From: Actinotignum timonense | GTDB taxonomy: Bacteria; Actinomycetota; Actinomycetes; Actinomycetales; Actinomycetaceae | Length of the DNA stretch: 11,958 nt | Assembly (NCBI RefSeq): GCF_030216305.1 | Contig: NZ_JASOKT010000025.1 | Location: 1 to 11,958 of the forward strand | Reading direction: 5' to 3' | Part shown: positions 7,555 to 10,812 of the stretch, in pieces | How positions within the stretch are numbered: the stretch's first letter is position 1 | Layout of the letters: each line of letters opens with the position of its first letter | The notes under the pieces: generated by a model | Seen by the model: the letters and a program-made list of their open reading frames with translations, nothing else | Database searches by the model: none | What the model was told of the DNA's origin: nothing | Translations under genes and position numbers: made by a program

Positions 7555-10500
7555 CTAGTCCCCTCCTGCCACGCGGGAGCGTGCTTGTTTCATGAGCAGC
7601 TCCTGGATATCGACGAGCGGGCGGCCCTTGGGGCTGAGGTTGTGGCGTACCCATCCGTCCGGGCCCAGGTGCCACGAGCTAGTGGTATCCGCGGTGGCCA
7701 CATCCACCAGTTCCACCAGGCGGTCCACCATATCCGGGTCCGTGATCTTGATGAGGGCTTCGATGCGCCGATCCAGGTTGCGATGCATGAGATCGGCAGA
7801 GCCGATGAAGACATCTGCGTCGCCGTCGTTACAAAAAGCGTAGATACGCGAGTGTTCGAGGTAGCGACCCAAGATGGAACGAGCTTTGATGTTATCGGAA
7901 AGCCCGGGGATGCCGGCGCGTAGGGCGCAAATACCGCGCACCTGGATGCTGACTTTCACGCCGGCTTGGCTGGCCCGGTAGAGGGCGTCGATGGTGGCTT
8001 CGTCCACGATGGAATTGACTTTGAATTTCACCCAGGCGGGTTTGCCAGCGTTCTTGTTTTCAATTTCGCGTTCGATCCGGTCGATGAGTCCGGAGCGGAT
8101 GCCGGTGGGCGCCACGAGGAGCCGGTGGAAGCGTTCCTGCCGAGAGTAGCCAGAGAGCTGGTTGAAGAGCCGGGTGAGATCCTGGCCCACATCCCGGTTG
8201 GAGGTGAGCAGGCCCAGGTCTTCATAGCCGCGGGCGGTTTTCGGGTTGTAGTTGCCGGTGCCCACGTGGCAGTAGCGGCGCAGGCCGTCGGATTCTTGGC
8301 GAACCACCAGCGCGAGCTTGCAGTGGGTTTTCAGCCCGATCATTCCGTAGACCACATGTACCCCGGCCCGCTCGAGTTTGCGCGCCCATTCGATATTGCG
8401 CTGCTCATCGAAACGCGCCTTGATTTCCACGATGGCGAGGACCTGTTTGCCGGCCCGGGCCGCCCGGATAAGCGAGTTCACGATGGGGGAATCCCCCGAA
8501 GTGCGGTAGAGGGTTTGTTTGATGGCGAGGACCTGCGGATCCGCGGCCGCCTGGGCAATGAATTGCTGCACCGAGGTGGAGAAGGATTCGTAGGGGTGGT
8601 GGAGCAGCACATCATGATCGCGCAGCTTCGCGAAGAAATCAGCCGGTTTGGCTGATTCGGCATCCGTGAGCCCGGTGGGCGTGACGGGCACATACTTCGG
8701 GTATTTGAGCCCGGGCCGGTCCAGATCGTGGAGTTGCTCGAGGGATTGCAGGTCCAGAGGCGCGGGCAGCCGGTAGGTATCCGAAGGGCTCACGCTCATT
8801 TCCTTCTGGAGGAAGCTGAGGGTGGCATCATCCATATCCTCATCTACTTCCAGGCGCACCACCGGCCCGAAGCGGCGCCGAAGCAGTTCGCGTTCCAGGG
8901 CGGTGAGGAGGTTTTCTGCGTCGTCTTCTTCGACTTCTAGGTCCTCATTGCGGGTGACGCGGAAGGTGGCGTAGCTTTGCACATCCATCCCGGGGAAGAG
9001 TTCACCCAGGTGGTGCCCGATGAGTTCCTCCAGGGGCAGGAATTCAATATCACTGCCGGCTTCCACCGGAACGTTTTCCGGGCTGTAGGCGGTGCCATCT
9101 TCCCCGATCATGAGGAATCGCGGGAGCAGATCCGGCACTTTCACCCGCGCGAAAGCGGAAGAACCGCGCCGATCTTTGAGGACCACGGCGAGGTTGAGAG
9201 AAAGCCCGGAAATATAAGGGAAGGGATGGGAAGGATCCACGGCGAGCGGGGTGAGGACGGGGAAAATCTCATCCTTGAAGAGCTTGGAGAAGCGCTGCTG
9301 CACCTGCGCATCCAGCTCATTCCAGCGGCGGATAAAAACGCCCTGGCCTTCAAGCTTGGGCTTGATATCTTCCGAGTAGACCTTGGCTTGGCGCGCGGTG
9401 AGTTCATGGGTGCGTTCCGCGATACCCTTCATGACCTGGCGCGGGGTGAGGCCGGATGCTGCCACCACTCCGATGCCGGTATCAATACGGCGCTTGAGGC
9501 CGGCCACCCGCACCATGAAGAACTCATCGAGGTTCGAGGAGAAAATGGAGAGGAACCAAGCACGTTCCAGGAGCGGCAGGGTTTCATCTTCCGCCTGTTC
9601 CAGCACTCGCTCATTGAAAGCCAACCAGGAGAGTTCCCGATCCGCGAAGCGCCCTTCGGGAAGCTGGGATTCTTCCGGGGCTTTCGCGGAACGCTTGGCG
9701 AGTTTGCGCGATTCCTTGGCCATATCCGTGAGGGATTTGGTGGAGACCGGCGAACCGAGCCGCACCGCCTGCAAGAAAGTTTCATGCGGGGTGGGTTCCA
9801 CGGCACTGGCGCCCTCCCGGGCCGCCAGGCGGGCGCGGGTAGCCGAAACGGCTGGTTCGGGTTGCAGTTCATAGCGGACATGCCGTTCGGCCTGCGTGAA
9901 ACCGGCCTTCCCGTAGACATGCACCGCGGCGGAATTCGCGGCATCAACATAGAGGATGCAGCGCGAGAAACCCCGCGAGCCGGTGGTGACAAGCGCCCAG
10001 GCCGTCAGCAGTTTCCCGATGCCCTTGCCGCGGTGTTCCGGGGCCACCGCGAGCACGTAGAGTTCCAGCACATTCGCTTCGCTCGGTTCGCTGGCTGCGC
10101 CGGGATCACTGGCCGCGTTCACTTCGGCTGCGCCGGATTCGCTGCCCGCACCGGATTCAGCCGTGGCACCCCCAAGCACATTCGGCTTGAGCCACACAAA
10201 GCCAACGAGTTCACCTTGGCAGCGCGCGGTTACCAGGAGCTCCGGAGTGAACCAGGGCGCTTCCATGCGTTCGCGCAGATCCTCCGCGGTGAGCTGGCCC
10301 TGATCGGGCAGATCCGCAAAAGCTTCCGCGTTGAGACGCGCAATATCCTCCAAATCCGCGGCCGGATCCACCGGAGCCAGCACGATTCCCGGCAGAGTCC
10401 ACAGGGCCGGGGCAGGATTTTCTTCCGTAACCGGGCGCTCCAACACGAGGAGGGTGCGCCCTGGGTAGAGCTGGGATGATGCCGCGAGTTCCTGGGCGGC

Positions 10501-10812
10501 CGGCAAATCCCCGTGCGCCCATACTGCGGTTTCCCCCGCATCCAGAACGGTGCGCAGCAATTCCGTACCGGCACCCTTGCCGCGGGCTTCCGGACGCACG
10601 GCCAATTCCACATCCCCGGTGCGCCCGGAATGAGCCACCCCGACCACGGGATCCCCGAGAGTCCACACCCGCGAACTTTCCGCGCCCGCGGCAATATCCA
10701 GAAGCGTTTGCTCGCTGAACGGCGCGACGCCATCCGCCGCGAAGCATTCTTGGGCGAGCTGGTTAAAAAGCGCGGCCTGATCCGGCTGCGGTGTTCCGGC
10801 AACGATACTCAT
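7555..10812 (-). CDS. ppk1: Fusion: MshD-like mycothiol synthase (double GNAT) + polyphosphate kinase 1
   Basis: One uninterrupted 1085-codon frame. Residues 1-318 resemble mycothiol synthase MshD, a tandem GNAT protein that acetylates Cys-GlcN-inositol in the last step of mycothiol synthesis. MshD-like features are [10 protein letters not shown] at 26-35, [11 protein letters not shown] at 72-82, WAHG at 98-101, the second-domain start [13 protein letters not shown] at 160-172, [11 protein letters not shown] at 256-266 and [11 protein letters not shown] at 295-305. A charged linker (about 319-384) leads to a full-length PPK1 (385-1085), which polymerises ATP gamma-phosphate into polyphosphate. 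It has [16 protein letters not shown] at 392-407, [16 protein letters not shown] at 425-440, R770 and R800 near the expected Mg/nucleotide arginines, the autophosphorylated H849 in HVGTGNYN, and H987 in HSRIYAF. ATG 10812 has AAAAAGGAG 7 nt upstream. No good ribosome site precedes the internal ATG 9723 (M364), so separate PPK translation looks unlikely. An Ala/Ser/Glu insert (about 214-247) interrupts the second GNAT domain. MshD identity is by memory of the family; PPK is certain. Confidence 0.93.

Follow-up and report, generated by a model that had tools for sequence, protein, structure and literature searches.

The window analysed here, an 11,958-nt stretch of Actinotignum timonense DNA (contig NZ_JASOKT010000025.1, forward strand), carries a gene in which a mycothiol synthase (MshD) is fused in frame to a polyphosphate kinase 1 (PPK1). 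Its single 1085-codon frame lies on the minus strand, with an ATG at 10812–10810 and a stop codon that ends at 7555. Residues 10–314 match the mycothiol synthase family TIGR03448 (NCBIfam) with 192.0 bits against a cut-off of 163.1, and residues 367–1080 match the PPK1 family NF003922 with 1158.6 bits (cut-off 981); a second PPK1 family, TIGR03705, was matched with 820.1 bits (cut-off 465.85). In Pfam, two GNAT stretches are followed by the four PPK1 domains (N, middle, C1 and C2) in order, these four over cut-off. These results bear out the original prediction of one frame with MshD-like GNAT modules and a complete PPK1. A hidden stop or frameshift at the junction, which that prediction had allowed for, was not found: the junction is open in seven other assemblies (L001–L007) and in genome G060, which rules out a sequencing error as cause of the joined frame. 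We regard the fusion as confirmed. The window is Actinotignum-like, with an MshD half 98% identical to A. timonense, and a search of a plasmid collection (near mode) and of viral contigs gave no match.

The 25 bases upstream of the fusion ATG are identical in L001, L002, L003, L004 and L118. Comparison of the window with L001, L118, L002 and L004 gave ratios of non-synonymous to synonymous substitution rates (dN/dS) of 0.034–0.111 for the MshD modules, 0.014–0.089 for the linker and 0.004–0.008 for PPK1, and the fusion is under purifying selection within Actinotignum. Against L005 and L006 the ratios were 0.13–0.37 or undefined, with synonymous sites near or past saturation, and no weight was placed on them.

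The identity of the first half as a genuine MshD, as had been predicted, is supported by profile, fold and active-site comparison. The TIGR03448 cut-off was passed in 16 of 16 fused genomes (in G001 and G004 after joining of split matches in one frame). For structural comparison, Foldseek was queried with the confident half of an AlphaFold model that is poor overall (mean predicted local distance difference test (pLDDT) 63.8, predicted template modelling (pTM) score 0.39, 12-row alignment) and in which the relative placement of the halves is unusable; the first half is confident outside an insert at residues 213–244. The best solved tandem-GNAT matches were the Mycobacterium tuberculosis MshD structures 2C27 and 1OZP at a target-normalised template modelling (TM) score of 0.85. 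Among other GNATs, the next by E-value reached 0.68 and the highest among the matches listed 0.73. E250 and Y300 of the fusion are invariant in 12 aligned fusions and correspond to E234 and Y294 of M. tuberculosis MshD. E234 is a proposed general base (PMC4964394). An unrelated tandem GNAT in place of MshD would be in line with the mere 86 bits that a single-sequence search gave to the solved MshD. This is very improbable in view of the profile and fold results above, the MshA and MshC relatives present in the fused Actinomycetaceae (see below), and the lack of any other MshD over cut-off in the fused genomes. The 213–244 insert (window ~10081–10176) is rich in Ala, Ser and Glu, predicted to be disordered, and absent or different in relatives.

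In the PPK1 half, three conserved histidines line up with those of the E. coli enzyme: H830 with H435, H849 with H454 and H987 with H592 (numbering within the PDB chain runs one lower). H849 and H987 had been named as catalytic beforehand, while H830 had been overlooked. Mutation of both H435 and H592 has been used to impair PPK1 in E. coli (PMC6537752). Where public entries of these fusions bear a name, it is polyphosphate kinase alone. One 800-aa protein known from a single record, P0004, is related to P0003 and has an intact PPK1, but an in-frame gap takes out most of its MshD. In P0003 the sequence EPVA stands at either edge of the missing segment; the loss may be due to faulty assembly or to a deletion across short repeats.

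Features of the window (coordinates on the forward strand; residue numbers refer to the fusion protein)
Feature	Position	Strand	Basis or remark
mshD-ppk1 fusion gene, 1085 codons	7555..10812	-	same frame in L001–L007 and G060
MshD N-terminal GNAT module, residues 1–140	10393..10812	-	boundary by analogy with M. tuberculosis MshD 1–140 (PMC4964394)
MshD C-terminal GNAT module, residues 141–318, with E250, Y300 and a variable low-confidence insert at ~213–244	9859..10392	-	
Linker, residues 319–387, predicted disordered; second half like the N-terminal extension of unfused PPK1	9652..9858	-	pLDDT <50 at 319–390
PPK1 body, residues 388–1085, with H830, H849 and H987	7555..9651	-	
Shine-Dalgarno-like AAAGGAG before the fusion ATG	10820..10826	-	duplex -8.5
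Candidate internal start GTG338 (9799–9801) with GGGAGGG (9812–9818) 10 nt upstream	9799..9818	-	duplex -10.8
Conserved 260-aa gene upstream of the fusion	11036..11818	-	no Pfam or NCBIfam match at 0.001
MutT1-like Nudix and histidine phosphatase gene, next downstream of the fusion	6537..7493	-	Pfam
pstS	5263..6384	-	TIGR00975 over cut-off
pstC-like permease	4108..5220	-	permease domain; pstC by position
pstA-like permease	2912..4165	-	permease domain; pstA by position
pstB-like ATPase	2109..2888	-	Pfam
pit-type phosphate transporter, convergent	943..1953	+	PHO4, 310.8 bits
Frame holding a PhoU_div (DUF47) protein	23..940	+	match at residues 107–301; true start probably further in

A contig scan with the MshD half, which used two short patterns and was not exhaustive, returned ten loci: Actinotignum timonense, A. 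schaalii (twice), A. sanguinis, Actinobaculum suis, A. massiliense, Neoactinobaculum massilliense, an Actinomycetaceae metagenome-assembled genome, Psychromicrobium and Arthrobacter. The first seven hold both halves in one frame of 1029–1162 codons (stop to stop); in the last three, mshD and ppk1 are separate genes. G060 is the eighth fused genome of the Actinotignum/Actinobaculum/Neoactinobaculum clade. Across the family, 52 of 213 Actinomycetaceae genomes have an MshD match at 1e-20 or better (49 over cut-off, 8 fused); among 14 control genomes, only Corynebacterium glutamicum gave a match. On the same strand, ppk1 adjoins mshD in 40 of the 44 unfused MshD-bearing genomes, with a domain-to-domain gap below 800 bases in 39 and, in G126 (L039), adjacent with ppk cut by the contig end. 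The gaps are 2.9 kb in G008, where a frame on the other strand intervenes, and 3.8 kb in G083; PPK1 was not found at 1e-60 in G061 and G142. PPK1 occurs in 169 of the 213 genomes; hence ppk1 often lives without mshD, and the two are linked where both occur in the family.

Several long frames were rejected as further fusions. The 1001-aa frame of G636 (L112) matches in its GNAT part alone, with no PPK1 found, and is attributed to a chance long frame; in G111 and G143 ppk lies in another frame, and in G105 and G110 the MshD frame (744 aa) is distinct from PPK1 frames of 1060 and 1052 aa. At L008, a 321-aa frame at 8348–9313 (minus) lies on the opposite strand between mshD and ppk1, and the PPK1 record of this locus holds a masked stretch. 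G142 (L145) has a partial MshD at a contig end, without PPK1 at 1e-60, and its assembly may be incomplete. Six small genomes of 1.3–1.4 Mb (G632, G651, G669, G684, G698 and G710) have partial MshD matches with one or two internal TAA codons; mshD seems to be decaying in this reduced lineage.

A second group of fusions was identified in the Micrococcaceae. A protein search with P0005 gave nine fusions of 1084–1114 aa, P0005 included, among them entries annotated as RNA degradosome polyphosphate kinase from Rothia koreensis and Kocuria sp. HSID16901; the label "Rothia-like" used here is taken from the names of these entries. MshD is present in 394 of 395 Micrococcaceae genomes. Among 42 of the lowest-scoring of these, eight are fused (1106–1231 codons), all with MshD and PPK1 in one frame, as checked over the full length for five. 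By frame length, no fusion occurs in 80 further genomes, and no frame above 480 codons was seen in the roughly 150 highest-scoring rows listed (not counted by script); in total, frame lengths cover all but ~120 of the 394 genomes. A 74-row FastTree phylogeny of MshD plus PPK1 contains two all-fused clades with support of 1.0 and 0.993, and PPK1 alone recovers the same two (1.0 and 0.933). The 74 rows exclude the duplicate loci L011–L020, loci that lack the gene pair, and genomes for which no locus had been fetched, G061 being one of these. The fusion trait needs two changes on the tree. Forcing the 17 fused rows into one clade cost 249 log-likelihood units, and a single origin is rejected (approximately unbiased (AU) test, p 2.6e-43; quick IQ-TREE search with some long branches). 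These phylogenies indicate that the fusion arose independently twice.

The unfused loci suggest how the genes were joined. In 58 of 59 loci (two genomes are included twice), a possible ppk start codon lies between -4 (ATGA- or GTGA-type overlap) and +104 bases from the mshD stop, the exception being L008. Fifteen residues that are conserved in the Actinotignum linker are clearly matched at the start of the L008 PPK1, which is unfused, and the motif IAKIERAETRGDRI in the linker of the Rothia-like fusions is similar to the PPK1 N-terminus of their unfused neighbours. The fused gene thus appears to consist of mshD minus its stop codon, a piece of what used to be intergenic sequence, and the ancestral N-terminal part of PPK1.

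MshD catalyses the last step of mycothiol synthesis from acetyl-CoA and cysteinyl-glucosaminyl-inositol (Cys-GlcN-Ins), and PPK1 polymerises the gamma-phosphate of ATP into polyphosphate. We consider it likely that a conserved mshD-ppk1 pair on one strand lost the stop codon of mshD, which gave a single bifunctional protein and tied the production of both enzymes at 1:1; this reading takes no side on a benefit. The product would be a single polypeptide of ~119 kDa (at 110 Da per residue), its modules tied by a flexible linker of ~70 residues that is predicted to be disordered and would in part be the old PPK1 N-terminal extension. The MshD half would acetylate Cys-GlcN-Ins with acetyl-CoA, completing mycothiol, and the PPK1 half would make polyphosphate from ATP. 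The catalytic motifs of both modules look intact, and the single frame, the two origins and the adjacency in relatives are observed; both activities, co-transcription and any benefit are inferred. Substrate channelling was set aside as unlikely since, by established enzymology, the two reactions have no intermediate in common. What the join would bring about is a fixed 1:1 output of the last thiol step and polyphosphate synthesis, inside a phosphate-uptake gene block.

The rest of the mycothiol pathway and the copy numbers of both genes were examined in close relatives of the window's strain. MshA and MshB relatives are present in all eight genomes of the Actinotignum/Actinobaculum/Neoactinobaculum clade and MshC in seven, and the MshA and MshC scores are well above the next match within the same genome. 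In G011 and G012, family members without MshD, no full-length MshA and no MshB were detected at the thresholds used (MshC was not searched there). Each of G001–G007 and G060 has one MshD frame over cut-off and one PPK1, and each of the eight Rothia-like fused genomes one MshD match at 1e-20 and one PPK1. No second MshD or PPK1 was seen in these 16 genomes at the thresholds used, in agreement with the expectation that fusion-bearing genomes lack a standalone mshD.

Some observations weigh against a bifunctional protein as the reading of the gene. All pathway relatives in the fused clade score below the curated NCBIfam cut-offs: MshA at 278–300 bits (cut-off 462.5), MshB at 89–189 bits (224.35) and MshC at 409–437 bits (485.1), with the MshB of G007 a partial match of 89 bits only. 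The anticipated mshA, mshB and mshC are hence represented by relatives under cut-off, and a mycothiol pathway in the fused clade is likely, not certain. The MshD half also drifts faster than PPK1, as judged from dN/dS. Lastly, a strong Shine-Dalgarno-like site at GTG338 could yield separate PPK1 in Actinotignum as well.

According to this last alternative, Actinotignum would make two products, the fusion and a PPK1 started at GTG338. The GGGAGGG motif before this codon performs in the top of a background of 615 in-frame ATG, GTG and TTG codons inside PPK1 bodies, 1.5% of which do as well, and the site is kept in the five other Actinotignum loci read (-10.8 in L001–L004, -10.2 in L118). By contrast, linker sites in A. 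suis (L005) are no stronger than -4.6, and the GTG of A. massiliense (L006) reaches only -7.1. In Neoactinobaculum (L007) the best sites are one of -8.2 twelve codons before the PPK1 core and one of -8.8 inside the last MshD strand (7–10% of the background does as well). Five Rothia-like fusions read have no linker start stronger than -3.5, the best other site (-8.3) lying inside MshD. ATG364, conserved in Actinotignum and Actinobaculum, was rejected as an internal start because it has no Shine-Dalgarno-like site. We judge the two-product explanation unlikely; internal initiation could supply some additional PPK1 in Actinotignum but is not general among the fusions. Exclusive translation of PPK1 from within the gene, raised in the original prediction as a way to undo it, looks improbable in the fused lineages examined other than Actinotignum, where the GTG is a plausible internal start.

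If a bifunctional protein is made, as we favour, the benefit of the join can still be read in two ways. In an adaptive coupling, a PPK1 oligomer would display MshD and place thiol synthesis at polyphosphate granules or make it responsive to the polyphosphate/ATP state. Coupled control, a PPK1 scaffold and granule placement were suggested in the original prediction, whose interpretation is supported in part. Two independent fusions, each kept in nearly all sampled clade members, a linker under purifying selection, and the common linkage of mshD to phosphate genes speak for such a role. On the other hand, the enzymes share no substrate, the linker is long, variable and predicted to be disordered, and recurrence is also expected from short intergenic gaps. 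We hold the adaptive explanation to be doubtful. In a neutral fusion, stop loss between co-translated genes would have been fixed by drift, harmless and without functional interplay. Unfused pairs are tight, some with ATGA or GTGA overlaps, so that few mutations suffice, and the linker resembles old intergenic DNA plus a PPK1 N-terminus. The low dN/dS of the linker argues against neutrality, albeit old PPK1 sequence in the linker may explain it, as does the absence of any unfused row inside either fused clade of the 74-row tree. We give the neutral explanation close to an even chance.

Genome G061 (L144) bears on both. Its block comprises the upstream gene, mshD alone, terminated by a separate stop codon where the MshD module ends, and pstS, pstC, pstA and pstB; ppk1 and mutT1 are absent from the 12 kb read at this locus. 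By four Pst proteins, G061 branches next to Actinotignum within the fused clade (support 99, starred), and a clade of the fused rows that excludes G061 is rejected (AU p 0.00045). MshD alone leaves G061 unplaced: grouping with the nine fused rows has an AU p of 0.63, and the nine fused rows without G061 have a support of 92, not starred, where long branches meet. The position of G061 rests on the four Pst proteins, and pst gene transfer is possible. The most probable history is that the PPK1 portion was lost from a fused ancestor while MshD was retained; alternatively, the G061 branch may be older than the fusion. With either history, MshD in G061 needs no PPK1. If MshD outlived PPK1 there, the join is not indispensable and the MshD half has worth of its own, which favours the bifunctional reading. 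This counts against adaptive coupling, as a clade member by its Pst proteins dropped PPK1, and in favour of neutrality, as the association was undone. Since losing a stop codon between closely spaced genes would be enough, and since G061 gave up PPK1, drift has to be taken seriously as an alternative.

The order of the 260-aa gene, mshD-ppk1, mutT1, pstS, pstC and pstA is common to L001–L007. The 260-aa gene precedes mshD in L001–L008, L118, L119 and L144–L147, which include unfused relatives and the ppk1-less block. The MutT1-like gene scores 170 bits against a MutT1 equivalog cut-off of 475; still, it follows ppk1 in fused and unfused genomes. In a class-wide sample of 118 genomes reduced to the 30 best-scoring mshD loci, which is not a random draw, ppk lies in the short flanks of five loci, and 20 of the other 25 were read with wide flanks. 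Within 10 kb of mshD, 17 of these 20 have pst, ppk1 or pit: mshD is directly upstream of pstS in seven, ppk follows 3.5–8.7 kb downstream on the same strand in seven, and a pit gene is nearby in three; no phosphate gene of these kinds was seen in three. The association of mshD with phosphate genes noted beforehand is thus common in the class loci read, and the fusion is its extreme form. In M. tuberculosis, ppk1 is under phosphate control via RegX3 (PMC10100808). The gene-order patterns might reflect a phosphate-mycothiol axis in actinobacteria, in which mshD sits in a phosphate block over much of the class, and of which the MshD-PPK1 protein would be the tightest form, the polyphosphate/ATP state sensed by a PPK1 oligomer setting or localising the last thiol step; this is a speculative suggestion to which we attach little confidence. 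If it were true, G061 would be a lineage released from the axis.

That the fusion recurs suggests a connection between mycothiol synthesis and polyphosphate, which shows in the gene order of much of the class and which the papers found do not discuss. The question becomes testable in one protein, with G061 as natural comparison without PPK1. It should be noted that names restricted to polyphosphate kinase may make these genera falsely look mshD-less. No description of an MshD-PPK1 fusion was found in the openly licensed literature, in keeping with the earlier statement that no characterised example was known; the sequences themselves are public. What is new is two known enzymes in a recurrent joint architecture. 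Like standalone M. tuberculosis MshD (Rv0819; PDB 1OZP, 2C27), the fusion has two GNAT modules, acetyl-CoA loop motifs, the E234/Y294 equivalents and the fold; it differs by a C-terminal PPK1 and, in Actinotignum, by the variable disordered insert of the C-terminal GNAT. With PPK1 of family NF003922 (called RNA degradosome polyphosphate kinase) it shares all four domains and three conserved histidines, and it differs by an N-terminal MshD. In Streptomyces, a supercluster of pit, pst, Nudix and ppk genes has been described (PMC7866108), in which ppk, a Nudix gene and pst/pit genes are grouped as they are here; the available text of that source makes no mention of mshD or mycothiol, whereas in Actinotignum mshD lies within the block and is joined to ppk1.

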